From the NCBI RefSeq assembly GCF_007752535.1, contig NZ_CP036426.1, forward strand, positions 5,580,001-5,644,000: a stretch of 64,000 nt of DNA. The letters run 5' to 3'. Numbering within the stretch: position 1 is the first letter of the stretch; each line of letters begins with the position of its first letter. Positions 50,158 to 58,991 of this stretch are shown one piece after another. Under the pieces are notes generated by a model, which worked only from the letters and a program-made list of their open reading frames with translations, was not told where the DNA came from and searched no databases. This DNA is from Tautonia plasticadhaerens. GTDB lineage: Bacteria; Planctomycetota; Planctomycetia; Isosphaerales; Isosphaeraceae. The position numbers and the translations under genes are program-made.

Positions 50158-53100
50158 ATGTCGGAGCAGCAGGAGCAACCCCGGGACCCGGTCGGTCGCC
50201 AGGTCTCGGCCTTGAAGGGGCTGGCCCGCTTGGTGGCCGATCGGGCCGAGGCCGAGGCCCGGCTCGGCCTCGATCGTTCCCGGCGCCTGGAAGCGGCCGA
50301 TCGGGTGCGGAAACAGGCCTCGAATGCGAACGAGGCCCGTTACCAGGCCGATCGAGACGCCCTCGAACGCCGGGCCCGTGAGGAGCCCGAGGCCGCCCGC
50401 GCCGCCTTCGAGGCGACCCGGGGGCAGGCCGAGGAGGCGCTCCGGGTGACGCGGGCCGAGGCCGAACGGCAGCTCCGGGACGCGGTCGAGGAGATCAAGA
50501 AGGCCCAGGCCGACCAGCGCTGGGAGGTCGGCACGATCTGCGAGGCGGGGCTGAACGACGCGAAGACCCGCCTGGAGAAGGCCCTCGCCCGCCTCTCGGA
50601 GGTCGAGTCCCGGCTCAGGGCGATCCGAGGGGAGGTCGACACCTACCTGTCCGCCCACCGGCTCCGCTCGGCCGCGACAGGGGCGGGGGCGACGGCCGAG
50701 GAGTCGGCCGAAGAACCCGAGCCCTCGGCCGAGGCGGCCGGGCAGGCGCTCGACGGGGCGGAGGATCGGCTCGACGACCTCCGGGGCCTCTCGATCCCCC
50801 GCCTCTTCCGGGGTGCGAGGCCGGCGCTGATCGCGGTCCTGCCGGCGGCGGCGGGGGCGGTCGCCGGTGGCTTGCTCCGGGGCTGGGCGATGGCCGCCCC
50901 GGTCGTCGGCGTGCTGGGGCTGGTGCTCGGGCTGGTCGTGGCGTACTGGCTGCATGCCACGGCGAAGGTCCAAACGCAACGGGCCCTCGGGCCCCTGCTC
51001 GGGGCGATCGATCGGGCCTCCCGGCTCTCCTCCCTGGCTCGGGAGCGCGAGATCTCGATCCATCGCGCCTCCGAGCAGGAGTGGCTGGGTCGCCGGGACC
51101 GGGAGCAGGTCGCCGCCGACGACCGGGCCAGGGCCGCCGCCGAGGAGGCCCGGCGTCGATATGACGACGCCGTCACCCGGGCCGAGGAGGCCCATCGGCT
51201 CGCGCTCTCGAACGCCGAACTCGGCCGGGACGAGGCCCTCCGTCGGCTCGGGGAGGAGGCTTCCCGGCTCGGCCCCGAGATCCGGGCCCGGTTCGAGGCG
51301 GAACGGAACCGGATCCTCCTGGAGCACGAGCGGGCCCTCGAGGACGCCTCCTCCCGGGCCGACGTCGAGTCCTCATCCCTGGCCGGGCGCTGGCGGTCCG
51401 GGCTGGCCGCGGTGGGGGAGGCCCTGGGGCGGGTCGATTCGGAGATGACCACCCGGTTCCCCACCTTCGAGGCGGTCGCCCGGGAGGATTCGACCCCGCC
51501 CGGGGAGGTCCCGCCCGCCCTGCGGTTCGGACGGCTCCGGGTCGACCTGGACATGTTCCCCGAGGGGCGTCCCGCGGACCCCGCCCTGATGGAAGGGCTG
51601 CCCGACCGGTTCGAGCCCCCGGCGATCCTCCGATGCCCCGAGGGGGGCTCCCTGCTCCTGAAGGCGGACGCCGAGGGTCGGCCCGCCGCCCTCTCGGCGC
51701 TGCAGGCGGTGATGCTCCGCATCCTCACCGGCTTCCCCCCGGGCAAGGCGCGGTTCACGATGATCGACCCCGTCGGCCTGGGCCAGACGTTCGCCGCCTT
51801 CATGCACCTGGCCGACGTGGACGAGCAGCTCGTCTCCAGCCGGGTCTGGACCGAGACGCAGCACATCGAGCAGCGGCTCCAGGACCTGACCGAGCACATG
51901 GAGAACGTGATCCAGAAGTACTTGCGTAATGAGTACCGCTCGATCACGGAATACAATGCGAAGGCGGGGGAGGTGGCCGAGCCGTTTCGATTCCTCGTCG
52001 TCGCCGACTTCCCGGTCCGGTTCAACGAGGCCGCCGCCCGCCGCCTCCTGAGCATCGCCCAGAGCGGCCCGAGGTGCGGCGTCCACGTCCTCGTCTCGGT
52101 CGACACGAGGCAGGAGATGCCGCAGGGGATCGACCCCAAGGACCTGGAACGGCACTGCGCCGTCCTCCGATGGCGGGAGGGCAGATTCCGCTGGGGAGAC
52201 CCCGACCAGGGCGGATTCCCGCTCGAATTGGACGAGCCGCCCCCCCCCGAGGTCTTCTCCGAGGTCGTCCGGGCCGTCGGCAGGCGGGCCGAGGGGGCGG
52301 GCCGGGTCGAGGTCCCCTTCGAATTCCTCGCCCCGAAGCCGGAGCGCCACTGGAAGGAGAGCAGCGCGGGGGGGGTGGCGATCCCGATCGGCCGGGCCGG
52401 GGCGACCAAGGTGCAGCAGCTCCGGCTCGGATCCGGCACGGCGCAGCACGTGTTGATCGCCGGCAAGACGGGATCGGGCAAGTCGACCCTGCTGCACGCG
52501 CTGATCACCAGCGCCGCCCTGGCCTATTCGCCCGACCAGGTCGAGTTCTACCTGATCGACTTCAAGAAGGGGGTCGAGTTCAAGGCGTATGCCACGCACA
52601 GGCTGCCCCACGCCCGGGTGATCGCCGTCGAGAGCGAGCGCGAATTCGGCCTGTCGGTGCTCCAGCGGCTCGACGAGGAGCTTCGAGTCCGGGGCGACCT
52701 GTTCCGGGAGGCCGGCGCCCAGGACGTGGCCTCGTTCCGGGAGGCCCGGCCCGACCGGACCATGCCCCGGATCCTGCTCATCGTCGACGAGTTCCAGGAG
52801 TTCTTCGTCGAGGACGACACGCTCGCCCAGGAGGCGGCGCTCCTGCTCGACCGCCTGGTCCGCCAGGGCCGGGCGTTCGGGATCCACGTGCACCTGGGGT
52901 CCCAGACGCTGGCCGGGGCCTACTCGCTGGCGAGGGCGACGATCGGCCAGATGGCCGTCCGGATCGCCTTGCAGTGCAGCGAGTCGGACGCGAGCCTGAT
53001 CCTCAGCGACGACAACACCGCCGCCCGGCTCCTCTCCCGCCCCGGCGAGGCGATCTACAACGACGCCAACGGCCGGCTCGAGGGGAACAGCATCTTCCAG

Positions 53101-54081
53101 GTCGTCTGGCTGCCCGACGAGAAGCGGGAGGAGTACCTGCGGCGGGTCTCGGACCTCGCCCGGGGGTCGGGCACCCGGTTCCGCCCGCCGATCGTCTTCG
53201 AGGGGAACGTCTCCCCCGACGTGGCGAACAACGAGCCGATGTCGGGCCTGCTCGGTGCCGAGGCCTACCCCGACCCGGCCCCCAAGGCCTCGACGGCCTG
53301 GCTCGGGGAACCGGTGGCGATCAAGGGGCCGACGGCGGTGCGGTTCCGCCGGCAGGCGGGTTCTCACCTGCTGATCGTCGGCCAGAACGAGGAGGCGGCC
53401 CGGGGCCTGATGGCGACCTCGATGCTCGGCCTCGCCGCCCACCGGCCCGACGCCCGGTTCGTGCTGCTCGACGGCACCCCGTCGGACGATCCCGCCTCGG
53501 GGATGCTCCCCGGCCTCGCCGATCGGTTGCCCCACGACGCCCGGGCCGTCCCCTGGGGGCAGGTCGAGGCCGGCGTGGCCATGGTCGCCGACGAGGTCGA
53601 GCGGAGGAGGGACGGGGGGATCACCGACGCCCCACCGCTCTACCTGCTCATCCACGACCTCCAGCGCTTCCGGCAGCTCCGCAAGGCCGAGGACGACTTC
53701 AGCTTCTCCTCGCGGTCCCCCGACGAGCCGCCCAAGCCCTCCGAGCTGCTCGGCACGATCCTCCGGGACGGCCCGGTCCACGGGGTCCACGCGATCCTCT
53801 GGGTCGACACCCTGAACAACCTGAACCGGACCCTCGACCGCTCCTCGCTCCGGGAACTGGAGCATCGGGTCCTCTTCCAGATGTCCTCGGGAGACTCCTC
53901 GACGCTGATCGACTCCCCCCTGGCCAACCGCCTCGGGATGTTCCGGGCCCTGCTCGTCAGCGAGGAGGCCGGCCTGATGGAGCGGTTCCGGCCGTACGGC
54001 CCCCCGCCTGCCGACTGGCTGGATGAGGCGGCCGGACGCCTCGCCGGGCGTCCCCTGCCCGCCCCCGGCCCGTCGTCGTGA
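50158..54081 (+). CDS. FtsK/SpoIIIE-EccC-like ATPase with three ATPase-like modules
   Basis: 1307-aa membrane ATPase. Residues about 20-160 form charged helices that look coiled coil; a double hydrophobic span occupies about 223-265 (ALIAVLPAAAGAVAGGLL, VVGVLGLVLGLVVAYWLHA); a further coiled coil runs to about 440. Three FtsK-like modules follow. The first (about 480-640) lacks Walker A; the second (about 745-990) has intact Walker A AGKTGSGKSTLLHAL near 768 and Walker B RILLIVDEFQEFF near 875; the third (about 1060-1250) has a degenerate LLIVGQNEEAARG. The three-module plan recalls EccC/EssC of type VII secretion, but no WXG100 or other partner is nearby. GGAGG fixes the start. Confidence 0.85.
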   Translation: MSEQQEQPRDPVGRQVSALKGLARLVADRAEAEARLGLDRSRRLEAADRVRKQASNANEARYQADRDALERRAREEPEAARAAFEATRGQAEEALRVTRAEAERQLRDAVEEIKKAQADQRWEVGTICEAGLNDAKTRLEKALARLSEVESRLRAIRGEVDTYLSAHRLRSAATGAGATAEESAEEPEPSAEAAGQALDGAEDRLDDLRGLSIPRLFRGARPALIAVLPAAAGAVAGGLLRGWAMAAPVVGVLGLVLGLVVAYWLHATAKVQTQRALGPLLGAIDRASRLSSLAREREISIHRASEQEWLGRRDREQVAADDRARAAAEEARRRYDDAVTRAEEAHRLALSNAELGRDEALRRLGEEASRLGPEIRARFEAERNRILLEHERALEDASSRADVESSSLAGRWRSGLAAVGEALGRVDSEMTTRFPTFEAVAREDSTPPGEVPPALRFGRLRVDLDMFPEGRPADPALMEGLPDRFEPPAILRCPEGGSLLLKADAEGRPAALSALQAVMLRILTGFPPGKARFTMIDPVGLGQTFAAFMHLADVDEQLVSSRVWTETQHIEQRLQDLTEHMENVIQKYLRNEYRSITEYNAKAGEVAEPFRFLVVADFPVRFNEAAARRLLSIAQSGPRCGVHVLVSVDTRQEMPQGIDPKDLERHCAVLRWREGRFRWGDPDQGGFPLELDEPPPPEVFSEVVRAVGRRAEGAGRVEVPFEFLAPKPERHWKESSAGGVAIPIGRAGATKVQQLRLGSGTAQHVLIAGKTGSGKSTLLHALITSAALAYSPDQVEFYLIDFKKGVEFKAYATHRLPHARVIAVESEREFGLSVLQRLDEELRVRGDLFREAGAQDVASFREARPDRTMPRILLIVDEFQEFFVEDDTLAQEAALLLDRLVRQGRAFGIHVHLGSQTLAGAYSLARATIGQMAVRIALQCSESDASLILSDDNTAARLLSRPGEAIYNDANGRLEGNSIFQVVWLPDEKREEYLRRVSDLARGSGTRFRPPIVFEGNVSPDVANNEPMSGLLGAEAYPDPAPKASTAWLGEPVAIKGPTAVRFRRQAGSHLLIVGQNEEAARGLMATSMLGLAAHRPDARFVLLDGTPSDDPASGMLPGLADRLPHDARAVPWGQVEAGVAMVADEVERRRDGGITDAPPLYLLIHDLQRFRQLRKAEDDFSFSSRSPDEPPKPSELLGTILRDGPVHGVHAILWVDTLNNLNRTLDRSSLRELEHRVLFQMSSGDSSTLIDSPLANRLGMFRALLVSEEAGLMERFRPYGPPPADWLDEAAGRLAGRPLPAPGPSS

Positions 54082-54836
54082 GGGTGGGGGGCGGGGAGGA
54101 CGACGAGGGGCCGCCGGGCGTCGGCGGGAATCCTCGGGGCCGGGCCCTCGCCGCGTTGCTGCTGCTCGTCCCCATCCAAAGCCTCGCCGTGATCGCCTTG
54201 CTGTTCGCGTTCCCGGGGGTCGAGGGGAAGATCTTCAGTGGGATCTGTCGGATCTGGATGCTCGTCCTCCCCCTGGTGTGGACGCGATCCGTCGAAGGGG
54301 CCCCGCTGGACATCCGGGGGCCGACGCGACGGGGGGTCGGCATCGGGCTGGCGGCCGGGCTGGCGCTCCTCGCCGTGATCCTGGCCACGTATGCCCTGGT
54401 CCGCCCGATCCTCGACCCGGGAGTCTTGCTGGCGCGGGCGAGTTCGACTGGATTCGACCGACCGGTCTCGTTCGTCCTGGTGTCCGCCTATGTCATCTTC
54501 GTGAATTCGCTCCTGGAGGAATACGTCTGGCGATGGTTCGTCTACCGGCAGGTCGAGGCGATCCTCCCTCCCGGGCTGGGCAATGCGGCGCGGAGGGCGA
54601 TGGCCGTCCTCGTCGCCGCGATGCTGTTCACGGTCCATCACGTCATCGCCCTATCGGCCTGGGTCGGGCCGGGGGCGGTCCTCCTCGGCAGCGTCGGCGT
54701 GTTCCTCGGGGCGTTGATCTGGTCGGCGATCTACGCCCGCGAACGGTCCCTCTGGCCCTGCTATTTCAGCCATATCCTGGCCGACCTGGCGATCATGATC
54801 ATCGGCTACGACGTCATCTTCCGGTCGGGAGGATGA
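54078..54836 (+). CDS. CPBP-family intramembrane glutamic endopeptidase
   Basis: Abi/CAAX-type membrane protease, 252 aa with about seven hydrophobic spans. The catalytic motifs are LLEEYVWRWFVYRQ (EExxxR) near residue 140, LFTVHHVIAL (FxxxH) near 180, and YFSHILADLAIMI (HxxxD) near 232. The gene starts with GTG overlapping the FtsK-like stop (GTGA), so it is translationally coupled. Related proteases process lipidated or prenylated proteins, or confer bacteriocin immunity; here the coupling suggests that it acts on the membrane ATPase or its substrates. Confidence 0.88.
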   Translation: MRVGGGEDDEGPPGVGGNPRGRALAALLLLVPIQSLAVIALLFAFPGVEGKIFSGICRIWMLVLPLVWTRSVEGAPLDIRGPTRRGVGIGLAAGLALLAVILATYALVRPILDPGVLLARASSTGFDRPVSFVLVSAYVIFVNSLLEEYVWRWFVYRQVEAILPPGLGNAARRAMAVLVAAMLFTVHHVIALSAWVGPGAVLLGSVGVFLGALIWSAIYARERSLWPCYFSHILADLAIMIIGYDVIFRSGG

Positions 54837-55167
54837 GCCATGAGGGTGCCCCGAGATGGCGCGCGTGTGAGGGTCGAGGACGATCGGGGGCTCGGGGTTT
54901 GAGGACGAGATCGAACCCCCTGGGCGTGTCGCCGGGTGCCGGGGAGAGGCCGGATCGCTCCGATTGCCGCATGGACCGAGGCGTCGGCCGCCGGGCGACG
55001 CCAAGCGTTCAAGTGGGATCCTCCCCCGATCCGATGTTCCTGGGGAAGCCGTCCGGTGGGCGACTCGACCGAGGCGACGGGCGGCCGGCAGGCGGTGCGG
55101 GTCGGTCGCCTTCGCGGCCCGGAGCGGCCGGGGGCCGCTGGGCTGCCGGGGCGTTGGGGGGTGACCC
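54837..55167 (+). other. 331-bp gap between the CPBP and ACP genes
   Basis: No gene is supported. The reading frame of the fusion protein is open from 54936, and short open frames exist on both strands, but they are Pro/Arg-rich and match no protein pattern. I find no clear promoter; the ACP start is preceded by GGGGGGTGACCC, a weak ribosome-binding site. Confidence 0.45.
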
Positions 55168-55425
55168 GTGAGCGATCAGGACTTGTTGAGCTCCGTCAGC
55201 GGGGCGATCCGGAGCTGCAGCGAGGTCGCCCGGGACCTCGCCATCGATCCCCATTCGAGGCTGGTCGAGGACCTGTCCCTGGATTCGCTCGACCTGGTCG
55301 CCGTCATGATGCACCTGCAGGACGAACACGCGATCGAACTGGACCTGGACGCGGTCCCGGGCTTCGAGGTCGTCTCCGACCTGATGACCGAGCTGGCACG
55401 TCAGGTCCGGCCCCGGGCGGCCTGA
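55168..55425 (+). CDS. Acyl carrier protein
   Basis: 85-aa ACP. The phosphopantetheine site is S40 in VEDLSLDSLDLVAVMMHLQD, the usual LxxDSLxxVEL form with Leu-Asp-Leu. The predicted four-helix fold is complete, ending ELARQVRPRAA. GTG is the start, the only one near. It lies 116 bp ahead of the E1-lipoyl-ketosynthase fusion and is the obvious acyl acceptor or carrier of that enzyme. It is not part of a standard fab cluster; no fabD, fabG or fabF is adjacent, so a second, specialised ACP is likely. Confidence 0.92.
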   Translation: MSDQDLLSSVSGAIRSCSEVARDLAIDPHSRLVEDLSLDSLDLVAVMMHLQDEHAIELDLDAVPGFEVVSDLMTELARQVRPRAA

Positions 55426-55541
55426 CCGCCCGACGTGCCCCGGGTACGAGCATTCGAACGCGGACACGTCTCGTCCGGCCGGCCGGAAGGCCCGGCGTCA
55501 CACACCCGGCCAGTCCGGATCGATCCGGCCCAGGGATGCAC

Positions 55542-58500
55542 ATGAATCAGCAGGATCGGAGCCGGGCGACCACCCCGGACGTCGCCCATCGTCGATTCAC
55601 GGACCGGGTCGCCCCGATCGGTGAGGCCGACTGGCTCGACACCTACCGGGCGATGGCCCTCGCGCGTCGGGTCGACGCCGCTGAGGCCGACCTCACCTCC
55701 CGGGGCCTGGCCTTCTTCTCCTGCCCCTGCACCGGCCACGAGGCGATGGCCGTCCTCGCCAGGCTGCTGACGGACGACGATTGGCTGCACCTGCACTATC
55801 GTGACAAGGCCCTCTGGATCGCCCGGGGGCTCTCCCCCTCGGCCCTGCTGCACAACGTGGTGGCCGGCGCCGACTCCCCCTCCGCCGGCCGCCAGATGAC
55901 GCCGTTCGTGGGCGACCCGGCCCTGAAGATCCTCTGCCAGAACGTCCCGGTCGGCAACCACGCCCCGCAGGCCGTGGGGGTGGCCGCCGCCGTGGTCGAC
56001 CGGCCCGGCCGGCCGGTCGTCCTCTGCTCGATGGGGGACGGCGCCTCCCAGGAAGGGGAGGTGCTGGAGGCGATCGCCGAGGCCGTCCGGCGCTCGCTGC
56101 CGGTCCTCTTCCTGGTCGAGGACAACGGCCTGTCGATCTCGACCCGGACCGCCGGGAAGACCTTCTACTCGCTCCCCGATGGTTATGACCCGCCGACGCA
56201 TCACCAGGGGCTGCCGATCCATCGCCTGGACGGCCGGGATCCGATCGGGCTGTTCGAGGGCCTCGCCCCGGTCGTCTCCCGGATGAGGGGCGATCGCCGC
56301 CCCGCGATCGTCGTCGTCTCGGTCGACCGGCTGACGAGCCATACGAACGCCGACGACGACCGGGTCTATCGTTCGGCCGAGGAGGTCGATCGGGCCCGTC
56401 GGCTGGGTGATCCGCTGGCGAACCTGCGGCGACGCCTGATCGAGGGCGGGATCCCGGCCGGCACGCTGGGGAGGATCGACGAGGAGGCGGATTCCTCGGT
56501 GAGGGTCGCCGTCGAGGCCGCCCTCGCCTCCCCCGACCCGGACCCCGTCCCGGACGCCAAGGCCCCGCTCCCTCCCCCGCTGCTCGACCCCGAACGGGAA
56601 TACCGCGGCACCCCGGGGGGCGACCGGCTGACGATGCTGGAGGCGATCCGAGCGGTGCTCCGGCATCGCCTGGCGAGCGACCCCAGGGTGACGCTCTGCG
56701 GCCAGGACATCGAGGACCCCAAGGGGGACGTCTTCGGCGTGACCCGGGGCCTGAGCACGGCGTTCCCGGGCCGGGTACTGAATGCGGCGCTGGCGGAGTC
56801 GACCATCGTCGGCGGGGCGATCGGCCGGGCGATGGTCGGGGAGCGGCCGGTGGCCTTCCTCCAGTTCGCCGACTTCCTGCCGGTTGCGTTCAATCAGATC
56901 CACTCCGAGCTGGGGAGCCTCTGGTGGCGGAGCGCGGGCACCTTCTCGTGCCCGGTCATCCTCATGGTCGCCTGCGGCGGCTACCGGCCCGGCCTGGGCC
57001 CGTTCCACGCGCAGACGATGGAGTCGCTCGCGGCCCACGTCCCGGGTGTGGACGTGTTCATGCCCTCGACCGCCCCGGATGCCGCCGGGTTGCTCAACGC
57101 CGCCTTCGAATCCGGCCGGCCGACGATCCTCTTCTACCCGAAGATTGCGCTAAACGACCGGGACCGCACCACCTCGGCCGACGTGATCGGGCAGCTCGCC
57201 CTGCCCGGCCGGGCACGGTACGCCCGACGCGGGGACGACCTGACCCTTGTCTGCTGGGGGGCGACGGTTGCCCTCGCGGAGAAGGTGGCCGACGCGATCG
57301 CCGATCAGGTCGGCCTCGGGGTCGAGGTGATCGACCTCCGGTCGCTCTCCCCCTGGGACCGGGACGCCGTCCGGGACTCCGCCCGACGGACCGGCCGGCT
57401 CCTGGTGGTCCACGAGGACAACCTCACCGTCGGCTTCGGTGCCGAGGTGGTCGCCGACGTGGCCGAGTCGGTCGGGCCCGCGGTCCGGTGCCGTCGGGTC
57501 GCCAGGCCGGACACGTACATCCCCTGCAACTTCTCGGCGCAGCTCGAGATTCTGCCGTCGTTCCGGCGAACGTTGGAAGCCGCGGCGGGGCTGCTCGGCC
57601 TGGAATTGAGCTGGGACCTCGGGGGCGTCGGCGTGGGCTCACGGGCGACGACCATCGAGGCGAGGGGGACCAGCCCTGCGGACGAGTCGGTGACCGTGCT
57701 CTCCTGGAAGGTCCGCCCCGGGGACTCGGTCCGATCGGGCGAGCCGATCGCCGAACTCGTCGCCGACAAGGCCGTCTTCGACTTCGTCTCCCCGATCGAC
57801 GGCCAGGTCTCCCGGCTTTCCGCCGCCGAGGGGGAGGCCGTCCGGGTCGGATCCCCCCTGCTGGAAATCGAGGCGAGCTCGACGCCGTCCGGGCTCCCCC
57901 GCCGTCGGCCGACCCGGGAGGAACACGGACGCCCGGTCCTCCGGCGGCGAGCCCCCTCGGCGATCGTCACCGGCACCTCGACGGTCGACGCGACCATCAG
58001 GCTCGGCGTCCCGAGCGTTTGCCTCGGGTCGGCGGTCGTCCGCAACGCCGACCTCCTCGCGAGATTACCCGGGTGGACCGAGGCCGACATCCTCAAGCGG
58101 ACCGGCATCGCGTCCCGGAGGCGGCTCGGCCCGGGGGAGTCGGCACAGTCGCTCGCCGAGGCCGCGGCCCGGGCGGCGCTCGACGTCGCCGGACTTTCCC
58201 CGACGGATCTCGACCTAATAATCTGCTGCACCGGGACGCCCGGGGTGATCTCCCCGTCGCTGGCCTGCCGGGTGCTCCACGCCCTGGGAGAGGCGACCGG
58301 GACGAAGCCCGAGGTCCCGGCGTATGACCTGGCCGCCGCCTGCTCCGGGTACCTGTTCGGCCTGGCCAACGCCTTCGACTTCACCCAGGCTCGGCCGGAC
58401 TCCCGGGTCTTGCTCCTGACGGCCGAGGCCCTCTCCCCCCTGGCCGATCCCGGCGACTTCGACACCGCTATCCTCTTCGGCGACGCCGCGACCGCCACCG

Positions 58501-58991
58501 TCGTCCTCGGCCCGGACGCCCCTCCGGGAGGCGTCCCAACGCTGGGGAGGCTCCGGAGGCCGGTCCTCTCCTCCCGGGGAGAGCCTGGGGAGATCCTCCG
58601 GGTGCCCGCCGGTGGAGATGGCTTCCTGGCGATGGACGGCCTCCGGGTCTATGCCGAGGCGGTCCGCCGCATGATCTCCCTGCTCGGGTCCGCCTGCGAG
58701 GCCGATGGCGTCTCCCCCGGCGAGCTCGACCTTATCGTGCCCCACCAGGCCAACGCTCGGATCATCAACGACATCCGGATGAGGCTGGGGCTCGACCCGG
58801 GTCGGGCCTTCGTCCACCTCAGGGATGTGGGCAACACGTCGTCGTCGAGCATCCCGCTGGCGCTGGCCGACCTCGCCTCCCGGGGGGCCCTGCCCCGATC
58901 GATCGGCCTGACCGCCTTCGGCGCCGGCTTCACGTTCGGGGCGGCGCTGCTCCGGGGCGAAGAGCGACCGGCCCGGCCGGCGAGGGGCTGA
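55542..58991 (+). CDS. Fusion: 2-oxoacid dehydrogenase E1-alpha/E1-beta, lipoyl domain and ketosynthase III
   Basis: 1149-aa chain. E1-alpha spans about 25-330, with ThDP motif MGDGASQEG (165-167) and EDNGLSIS at N195. E1-beta spans about 360-690, with ThDP-activating E419 in NAALAESTIVGG and H489 in GPFHAQTME. A lipoyl domain lies at about 703-780 (VLSWKVRPGDSV, K743 in VADKAVFDF). A FabH-type ketosynthase III fills about 812-1140, with Cys934 in AAACSGYLFG, H1068 in VPHQANARI and N1098 in DVGNTSSSS, a complete triad. There is no E2 acyltransferase domain. Inference: a 2-oxoacid is decarboxylated, the acyl passes to lipoate and then to the ketosynthase for condensation with malonyl-ACP. AGGG precedes ATG 55542. 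Confidence 0.9.
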   Translation: MNQQDRSRATTPDVAHRRFTDRVAPIGEADWLDTYRAMALARRVDAAEADLTSRGLAFFSCPCTGHEAMAVLARLLTDDDWLHLHYRDKALWIARGLSPSALLHNVVAGADSPSAGRQMTPFVGDPALKILCQNVPVGNHAPQAVGVAAAVVDRPGRPVVLCSMGDGASQEGEVLEAIAEAVRRSLPVLFLVEDNGLSISTRTAGKTFYSLPDGYDPPTHHQGLPIHRLDGRDPIGLFEGLAPVVSRMRGDRRPAIVVVSVDRLTSHTNADDDRVYRSAEEVDRARRLGDPLANLRRRLIEGGIPAGTLGRIDEEADSSVRVAVEAALASPDPDPVPDAKAPLPPPLLDPEREYRGTPGGDRLTMLEAIRAVLRHRLASDPRVTLCGQDIEDPKGDVFGVTRGLSTAFPGRVLNAALAESTIVGGAIGRAMVGERPVAFLQFADFLPVAFNQIHSELGSLWWRSAGTFSCPVILMVACGGYRPGLGPFHAQTMESLAAHVPGVDVFMPSTAPDAAGLLNAAFESGRPTILFYPKIALNDRDRTTSADVIGQLALPGRARYARRGDDLTLVCWGATVALAEKVADAIADQVGLGVEVIDLRSLSPWDRDAVRDSARRTGRLLVVHEDNLTVGFGAEVVADVAESVGPAVRCRRVARPDTYIPCNFSAQLEILPSFRRTLEAAAGLLGLELSWDLGGVGVGSRATTIEARGTSPADESVTVLSWKVRPGDSVRSGEPIAELVADKAVFDFVSPIDGQVSRLSAAEGEAVRVGSPLLEIEASSTPSGLPRRRPTREEHGRPVLRRRAPSAIVTGTSTVDATIRLGVPSVCLGSAVVRNADLLARLPGWTEADILKRTGIASRRRLGPGESAQSLAEAAARAALDVAGLSPTDLDLIICCTGTPGVISPSLACRVLHALGEATGTKPEVPAYDLAAACSGYLFGLANAFDFTQARPDSRVLLLTAEALSPLADPGDFDTAILFGDAATATVVLGPDAPPGGVPTLGRLRRPVLSSRGEPGEILRVPAGGDGFLAMDGLRVYAEAVRRMISLLGSACEADGVSPGELDLIVPHQANARIINDIRMRLGLDPGRAFVHLRDVGNTSSSSIPLALADLASRGALPRSIGLTAFGAGFTFGAALLRGEERPARPARG

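Follow-up and report, generated by a model that had tools for sequence, protein, structure and literature searches.

A single-chain E1–lipoyl–ketosynthase III fusion from Tautonia plasticadhaerens: a probable starter synthase without an E2 component

We analysed a stretch of 64,000 nucleotides from Tautonia plasticadhaerens (contig NZ_CP036426.1, positions 5,580,001 to 5,644,000 of the forward strand; hereafter the window, whose numbering is used throughout), within which a single gene encodes a protein of 1149 residues that joins both halves of a thiamine diphosphate (ThDP)-dependent 2-oxoacid dehydrogenase (E1-alpha and E1-beta) to a lipoyl domain and a ketosynthase III (KSIII) domain. The genome comprises 9,395,224 bases in 6 contigs; strain ElP is described as having a chromosome and five plasmids (PMC7716859). 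The frame is uninterrupted from an ATG at 55542, and a longer mechanically predicted open reading frame begins with a GTG at 54936; the former start is preferred because two of the three same-genus homologues share the sequence MNQQ at the matching site. The gene for an acyl carrier protein (ACP) lies upstream, separated from this ATG by 116 bp. The coordinates are collected in Table 1.

Table 1. Features of the fusion gene and of the adjoining carrier protein gene, in window numbering
Feature	Position	Strand	Details
Acyl carrier protein gene	55168..55425	+	85 aa; serine in DSLDLVA; PP-binding 26.4 bits vs cut-off 20.8
E1-alpha/E1-beta/lipoyl/KSIII fusion gene	55542..58991	+	1149 aa, single frame
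E1-alpha domain	55644..56546, residues 35-335	+	PF00676 E1_dh 116 bits; D166, N195, H267
E1-beta pyrimidine-binding domain	56628..57155, residues 363-538	+	PF02779 Transket_pyr 79 bits; E419, H489
E1-beta C-terminal domain	57207..57539, residues 556-666	+	PF02780 Transketolase_C 96.7 bits
Lipoyl domain	57687..57869, residues 716-776	+	PF00364 Biotin_lipoyl 48.8 bits; acceptor K743 at 57768-57770
KSIII domain	57984..58958, residues 815-1139	+	PF08545/PF08541 ACP_syn_III/_C matches 928-1138
KSIII triad	C934 58341-58343, H1068 58743-58745, N1098 58833-58835	+	
D849	58086-58088	+	stands where FabH has the coenzyme A (CoA)-clamp Trp

An earlier note, made from the letters of this DNA, had described just such a one-chain assembly with an ACP gene immediately upstream, and this description holds: the frame is open, every domain of the protein scores above its Pfam cut-off, as does the carrier protein, and the lipoyl lysine and the ketosynthase triad lie where they had been placed. 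The E1 residues given in Table 1 presumably serve in ThDP binding and catalysis. Pfam finds neither an E2 acyltransferase domain (PF00198) in the protein nor, at an E-value of 0.001, a peripheral subunit-binding domain for E3, and the only two PF00198 matches in the genome lie some 2.36 Mb from the fusion.

Full-length matches were obtained in four of the 148 genomes searched, namely that of T. plasticadhaerens and three of the same genus; all four encode the ACP and a single-frame fusion with the triad and the lipoyl lysine, so that the frame break that might have undone the interpretation was not seen. Further afield, when genome contigs were scanned with the proteins of the four genus members, 82 loci were confirmed and the best 80 of them studied; as it relied on two peptide patterns, the scan will have undercounted. 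E1 through to the end of KSIII is in one frame at 69 of these loci, and the other 11 run off contig ends. Their record titles name Verrucomicrobiota, Kiritimatiellales/Lentisphaerae, Planctomycetota, metagenome-assembled genomes (MAGs) of Actinomycetota, numerous species of Rhizobium and, in a few cases, MAGs with other labels: the domain order that was to be sought in other genomes therefore recurs, full-length, in several phyla. Since it is kept in these phyla and in all four genus genomes, chance or a frame artefact is ruled out. In evenly drawn phylum samples, in which the centre genomes, chosen for carrying the fusion, are counted, it is full-length in 32 of 337 genomes of Verrucomicrobiota in the wide sense (with two further partial matches), 6 of 346 Actinomycetota, 4 of 343 Planctomycetota (the frame in G1117 having been read) and 2 of 398 Pseudomonadota. 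The fusion is thus widespread, and commonest in Verrucomicrobiota among the four phyla sampled. Viral contigs, scanned with six peptide patterns, yielded no relative, and plasmid records gave three Streptomyces matches at E 1e-80, all confined to the E1 part.

Residue conservation was counted in an alignment of the window protein with 114 others (74 from scan loci and 40 from sampled genomes), a set that includes eight repeats, the window protein itself among them, as well as 30 isolates from Rhizobium or Rhizobiales; a recount was made on 68 representatives below 90% identity, and gap cells stem from loci cut by contig ends. The lipoyl lysine is present in all 114 rows and all 68 representatives, preceded by D, T, E, N or S. 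The ketosynthase cysteine is found in 112 of the 114 rows and the histidine and asparagine in 111 each, the other two or three rows having contig-end gaps, and each of the three is kept in 66 of the 66 representatives with a letter there: loss of the triad in homologues, named beforehand as evidence that would tell against the proposal, occurs in no row that covers it. Within E1, His267, Glu419 and His489 are kept in every row where they are present, and Asp166 is replaced by glutamate in two. Across the 115 aligned rows, 16-19 residues separate E1-beta from the lipoyl domain and 37-61 (median 44) the lipoyl domain from KSIII, lengths that would suit a swinging arm.

The strongest support for the proposal that KSIII stands where E2 would otherwise be comes from the phylogeny of E1. 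The tree, a quick IQ-TREE run with SH-aLRT support only, for which the tool flagged long branches around the outgroup, comprises 54 rows, including 33 fusions chosen for diversity from 137 frames with E1 and ketosynthase, many of them repeats; near-identical Rhizobium loci, same-genus duplicates and three loci cut by contig ends (L105, L106 and L113) were left out of the trees. All 33 fusions form one clade (SH-aLRT 100), whose sister, at a support of 93 (below the tool's mark of 95), comprises seven planctomycete proteins from a single family. Of these, five (L205-L209; Planctomycetota family f60) share the domain order of the fusion up to the lipoyl domain but end, as read by eye, in an E2 catalytic domain bearing a DHR motif instead of KSIII; for L205, the Pfam order is E1_dh, Transket_pyr, Transketolase_C, Biotin_lipoyl and 2-oxoacid_dh (PF00198). 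The E2 reading is lost in the other two, L204 and L210. Next outside are L036, with E1 and a separate lipoyl-E2 protein, and L247 from Streptomyces. One E1–lipoyl scaffold thus ends in either E2 or KSIII, and because the sister clade has E2 at that very position, KSIII occupies the place of E2, as the earlier note had proposed. As an observation in its own right, a single gene in L205-L209 encodes the entire front end of a dehydrogenase, with DHRPFNG as the E2 motif.

The KSIII domain itself resembles FabH in its triad and in Arg249 (E. coli FabH numbering), which we take to dock ACP: both features are complete in all 33 fusions, with Asn247 in 31. It nevertheless forms a separate clade, set apart from 16 FabH-type rows in the KSIII tree with a support of 100 (many inner forks being unsettled), and it differs from FabH in being fused to its acyl supplier and in lacking the tryptophan (Trp32) that presumably clamps, together with Arg151, the adenine of CoA. 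This tryptophan is present in 15 of the 16 FabH-type rows and in the five PDB chains for which alignments were shown; it is absent from all 33 fusions, where D, E, A, M, G or K stands in its place, and likewise from all 114 rows and 68 representatives of the wider sets. Its absence fits a donor other than CoA, without naming that donor, and agrees with the earlier proposal that no free acyl-CoA is formed. A separate FabH-type gene was found in all 13 fusion-bearing genomes searched, for which reason the fusion is probably a further, specialized KSIII and not the general initiator. NCBIfam models gave mixed scores: for fabH (TIGR00747; cut-off 292.1), the window protein reaches 200.4 bits and the Pontiella sulfatireligans copy 230.7, both below, whereas for NF006829, a beta-ketoacyl-ACP synthase 3 subfamily (cut-off 249), the window protein (232.7) and the planctomycete protein L122 (227.9) fall below and the P. 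sulfatireligans copy (265) above.

An AlphaFold2 monomer model with 20 family members as input (pLDDT confidence 80.6, pTM 0.64) was used for fold comparison only. The predicted KSIII domain matches E. coli FabH (9ka6_A) with Z 42.4 and a root mean square deviation (rmsd) of 1.8 over 309 residues, and an entry for the W42A,R161A double mutant from M. tuberculosis is also among the structural matches. For E1-beta, the model gives a tie between human pyruvate dehydrogenase (PDH) E1 (6cer_D; Z 40.8, rmsd 1.9, 323 residues) and the branched-chain E1 of T. thermophilus (1um9_B; Z 40.6, rmsd 1.9, 318 residues). The match table covers E1-beta and KSIII, and hardly E1-alpha and the lipoyl domain.

Taken together, we consider it probable (roughly 0.7) that the fusion is a single-chain starter synthase that works without E2. 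The E1 halves would bind ThDP, decarboxylate a 2-oxoacid (most likely a branched one, with preference given to 2-oxoisovalerate) and pass the acyl group reductively to the lipoyl moiety of Lys743. The lipoyl domain, on its linker of about 44 residues, would then present the S-acyl-dihydrolipoyl group to KSIII, where Cys934 would take the acyl group by thioester exchange; in classical systems, this passage from lipoate to ketosynthase is the work of E2, CoA and FabH. His1068 and Asn1098 would drive decarboxylative condensation with malonyl-ACP to give a branched beta-ketoacyl-ACP, the malonyl carrier in Tautonia probably being the neighbouring ACP, and a general dihydrolipoamide dehydrogenase would reoxidize the lipoyl group.

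That the product would be a beta-ketoacyl chain is in keeping with one planctomycete MAG (L122; 8025-13814), in which E1, lipoyl, KSIII, ketoreductase (KR) and ACP domains follow one another in one protein of 1930 residues. The KSIII triad is kept, and the KR (203 bits) retains the stretches GGLGALG, SSISA and SYAAAN; because a KR follows KSIII, this arrangement implies a beta-ketoacyl product, which agrees with the earlier prediction. The last ~245 residues of this protein, behind the ACP, have no Pfam match and possibly form an offloading domain.

For the substrate, lipid composition offers a lead. Even-numbered iso chains are built on an isobutyryl starter, which comes from 2-oxoisovalerate. 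The fusion is carried by P. sulfatireligans F21 (L114), for which the species description lists, as acids above 5%, C18:0, i-C12:0, i-C18:0, i-C14:0 and i-C16:0, with similar lists for P. desulfatans and Kiritimatiella glycovorans (PMC7356697). An isobutyryl starter from 2-oxoisovalerate is therefore favoured. The earlier note had offered a branched- or aryl-chain starter: the former gains indirect support from these even iso acids, and nothing supports the latter. In a Kiritimatiellales MAG (G150), which may be incomplete, the fusion is the only E1_dh match. The interpretation from which we set out is thus partly supported: its architecture is well supported, and we infer all four steps of the chemistry as well as the substrate, now refined to 2-oxoisovalerate.

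A number of observations weigh against this reading. ACP genes near the fusion in Tautonia, L066, L089 and L094 favour it, but the flanks of the other loci searched (at most 8 kb and often less) yielded none; at most loci, housekeeping malonyl-ACP would therefore have to serve. The most abundant acid of P. sulfatireligans is the straight-chain C18:0, at 35% (PMC7356697). Moreover, this organism encodes one other E1-alpha/beta, close to genes resembling those of E2 and E3; this second system could also supply acyl-CoA, so the link between fusion and lipids in Pontiella is only a correlation. The Isosphaeraceae literature searched, in the parts available, gave no fatty-acid composition for Tautonia, and comparison of the E1 pocket with PDB alignments, tried as a substrate marker, was ambiguous between branched-chain and pyruvate enzymes. 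In KSIII, Arg151 proved a poor marker (R in 7 and Q in 6 of the 16 FabH-type rows; Q also in 3 of the 33 fusions). The clamp tryptophan is also missing from two KSIII relatives that stand alone, with no E1 next to them, and that fall inside or beside the fusion group in the KSIII tree; its absence is therefore a trait of the clade and does not prove that lipoyl is the donor. Near the fusion at L066 lies an E2-type catalytic domain in a protein of its own, and the acyl group may be shared with such an enzyme in that lineage. Finally, the literature searched contained no experiments on any member of the family.

Alternatively, E1 might take pyruvate or a ketose-derived unit, which would give an acetyl- or glycolyl-derived beta-ketoacyl product and not a branched one; glycolyl units are indeed taken by E1 proteins of the NapB/QncN type. 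The best NCBIfam E1 models are pyruvate dehydrogenase ones, albeit below their cut-offs, and the best PDB match of E1-beta is 1ik6, named pyruvate dehydrogenase, at 180.1 bits, level with 1um9_B of T. thermophilus at 179.3. However, E1-alpha is matched best by the E1 of T. thermophilus, titled branched-chain (122 bits), even if the human branched-chain dehydrogenase (BCKDH; 76.5) and PDH (73.4) are nearly equal to each other; E1-beta reads QFADF, by eye, against QFADY in the BCKDH entries; a FabH-type gene is already present in these genomes; and Pontiella makes even iso acids. We therefore regard such a substrate as unlikely, although it is the alternative to which we give most weight. Somewhat less likely still is that KSIII acts as an acyltransferase only, handing the acyl group on lipoate over to the neighbouring ACP with no condensation step and so yielding an acyl-ACP starter, in the manner of the E2 domains of lipoyl-E2-ACP loading proteins. 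One report gives cervimycin, xenocyloin and nonactin as cases with acylating ketosynthases (PMC4578411), the Streptomyces megasynthase at L247 starts with lipoyl-E2-ACP-KS, and a conserved ACP adjoins the fusion in Tautonia; yet the decarboxylating histidine and asparagine are kept in all covered rows, the KR behind KSIII in L122 needs a beta-keto group, and most loci have no ACP nearby.

That the acyl group leaves as acyl-CoA by way of another cellular E2, with KSIII then acting like FabH and the fusion merely co-locating the proteins, seems improbable to us. Genes for E2 were present in all 11 genomes tested, two of them in T. plasticadhaerens, and L066 has its E2-type domain; against this stand the absence of the CoA-clamp tryptophan from every fusion row examined, the E2 domain that the sister clade carries in cis at the place of KSIII, and a blastp search with three E2 proteins against all open reading frames of the 80 scan loci (flanks of at most 8 kb, often less), in which L066 alone had such a domain. 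A separate partner E2, which the earlier note had held to be damaging, is not suggested by the distant E2 genes of T. plasticadhaerens itself, but at L066 a stand-alone E2-type domain does lie next door. Least credible by far is a decayed or regulatory fusion devoid of catalysis: the gene is usually a lone one, and only large common neighbour families recur across phyla, but the catalytic residues of three different enzymes are conserved across those phyla.

Known systems appear to serve the same aim, and what would be new in the fusion is the single chain, the lack of E2 and the presumed role of KSIII in accepting the acyl group directly. With PDH and BCKDH, it shares E1-alpha and E1-beta with their ThDP and catalytic residues, and a lipoyl domain with the acceptor lysine; it differs in having no E2 domain in cis or in an adjoining gene (L066 excepted) and no E3-binding domain. 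In NapB/NapD and QncN/QncL, a ketose-derived acyl group is moved from lipoyl to ACP by E2, a catalytic domain for which the fusion has KSIII and no PF00198 match. A similar transfer from lipoyl to carrier protein presumably occurs at L247 (5878-13869; a plasmid of Streptomyces sp. NBC_01294), whose fused E1-alpha/beta belongs to the same wider clade, but an E2 catalytic domain (PF00198) is found there instead of KSIII. This E1 adjoins a megasynthase annotated as a non-ribosomal peptide synthetase; its lipoyl-E2-ACP-KS start, followed later by PS-DH and KR matches, looks like a lipoyl-fed loading module. The closest functional parallel may be Photorhabdus BkdABC, the branched-chain ketoacid dehydrogenase system behind iso fatty acids, isopropylstilbene and photopyrones: by one account, it yields a 5-methyl-3-oxohexanoyl thioester, a branched beta-ketoacyl unit as envisaged here, with a carrier domain within BkdB (PMC4578411). 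Sources disagree on this point, since another, in which bkdABC gives branched fatty acids in E. coli, names isovalerate-CoA as the Bkd product (PMC3838401). BkdABC comprises three genes with the carrier inside BkdB, whereas E1, lipoyl and KSIII form one chain in the fusion and the ACP is separate. A published description of such a fusion was not found in the literature searched, which is weak evidence of novelty, most subscription journals lying outside that search.

Neighbouring genes had been expected to hint at the product. When the neighbours at 54 loci were clustered by blastp (E 1e-8; four loci or more per cluster), with L121 and the bulk of the Rhizobium loci set aside, they proved clade-specific and the fusion usually a lone gene. 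Only large, common-looking families, such as an ABC ATPase and a regulator or aminotransferase (7 loci each; named by eye), recur across phyla, and the neighbours therefore do not name the product. In the window, a gene for a 1307-residue FtsK/SpoIIIE-type ATPase (50158-54081) and, overlapping it by 4 bp, one for an Rce1-like protease (54078-54836) lie upstream of the ACP, and a glycosyltransferase gene lies downstream on the opposite strand; these flanking genes give no hint of a lipid cluster. PADLOC matches to SspH (8e-32) and mad8 (7e-23) fall in the ATPase region only. At L066 (3283-11342), one run comprises an AMP ligase, an ACP, the stand-alone E2 catalytic domain, an LPG_synthase_C protein and the fusion, possibly a novel lipid or peptide pathway.

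Two further patterns concern the history of the family. Two other genomes from the family of Tautonia (G017 and G031) give as their best match a KSIII that stands alone (46-50% identity), with an ACP gene before it and an acyltransferase gene after it. Their E1_dh matches are either shorter frames scoring far above the fusion with the Pfam model or frames of 986 and 991 residues; as none of them resembles the fusion, its E1 half seems to be missing from both. These rows of ACP, KSIII and acyltransferase genes lie at L034 (1979-4469) and L035 (8287-10735), their KSIII belonging to the clade of the fusion and the acyltransferase of L034 matching Lip_A_acyltrans in Pfam. In the Rhizobium tropici/rhizogenes/lusitanum group (L070-L120), many species carry the fusion, with no ACP nearby. 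Rhizobium fusions adjoin planctomycete MAGs in the E1 tree, which suggests that they were acquired by horizontal transfer.

It is an even question whether the fusions constitute a new class of 2-oxoacid enzymes, with a ketosynthase replacing E2, such that the acyl group passes directly from lipoate to the KSIII cysteine and never becomes acyl-CoA, and which may provide the main route from 2-oxoisovalerate to even iso acids in Kiritimatiellota and Verrucomicrobiota and the loading end of a reducing, KR- and ACP-containing synthase in one planctomycete. If so, entry into branched fatty-acid or polyketide synthesis would be independent of CoA, and lipoate-to-ketosynthase transfer would be a new step; the origin of iso fatty acids in these little-studied phyla would, moreover, become a testable claim. 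Production of branched chains in E. coli could also profit from a starter module that consists of one gene. The sister architectures ending in E2 and KSIII illustrate clearly how the catalytic domain on a single scaffold has been exchanged.

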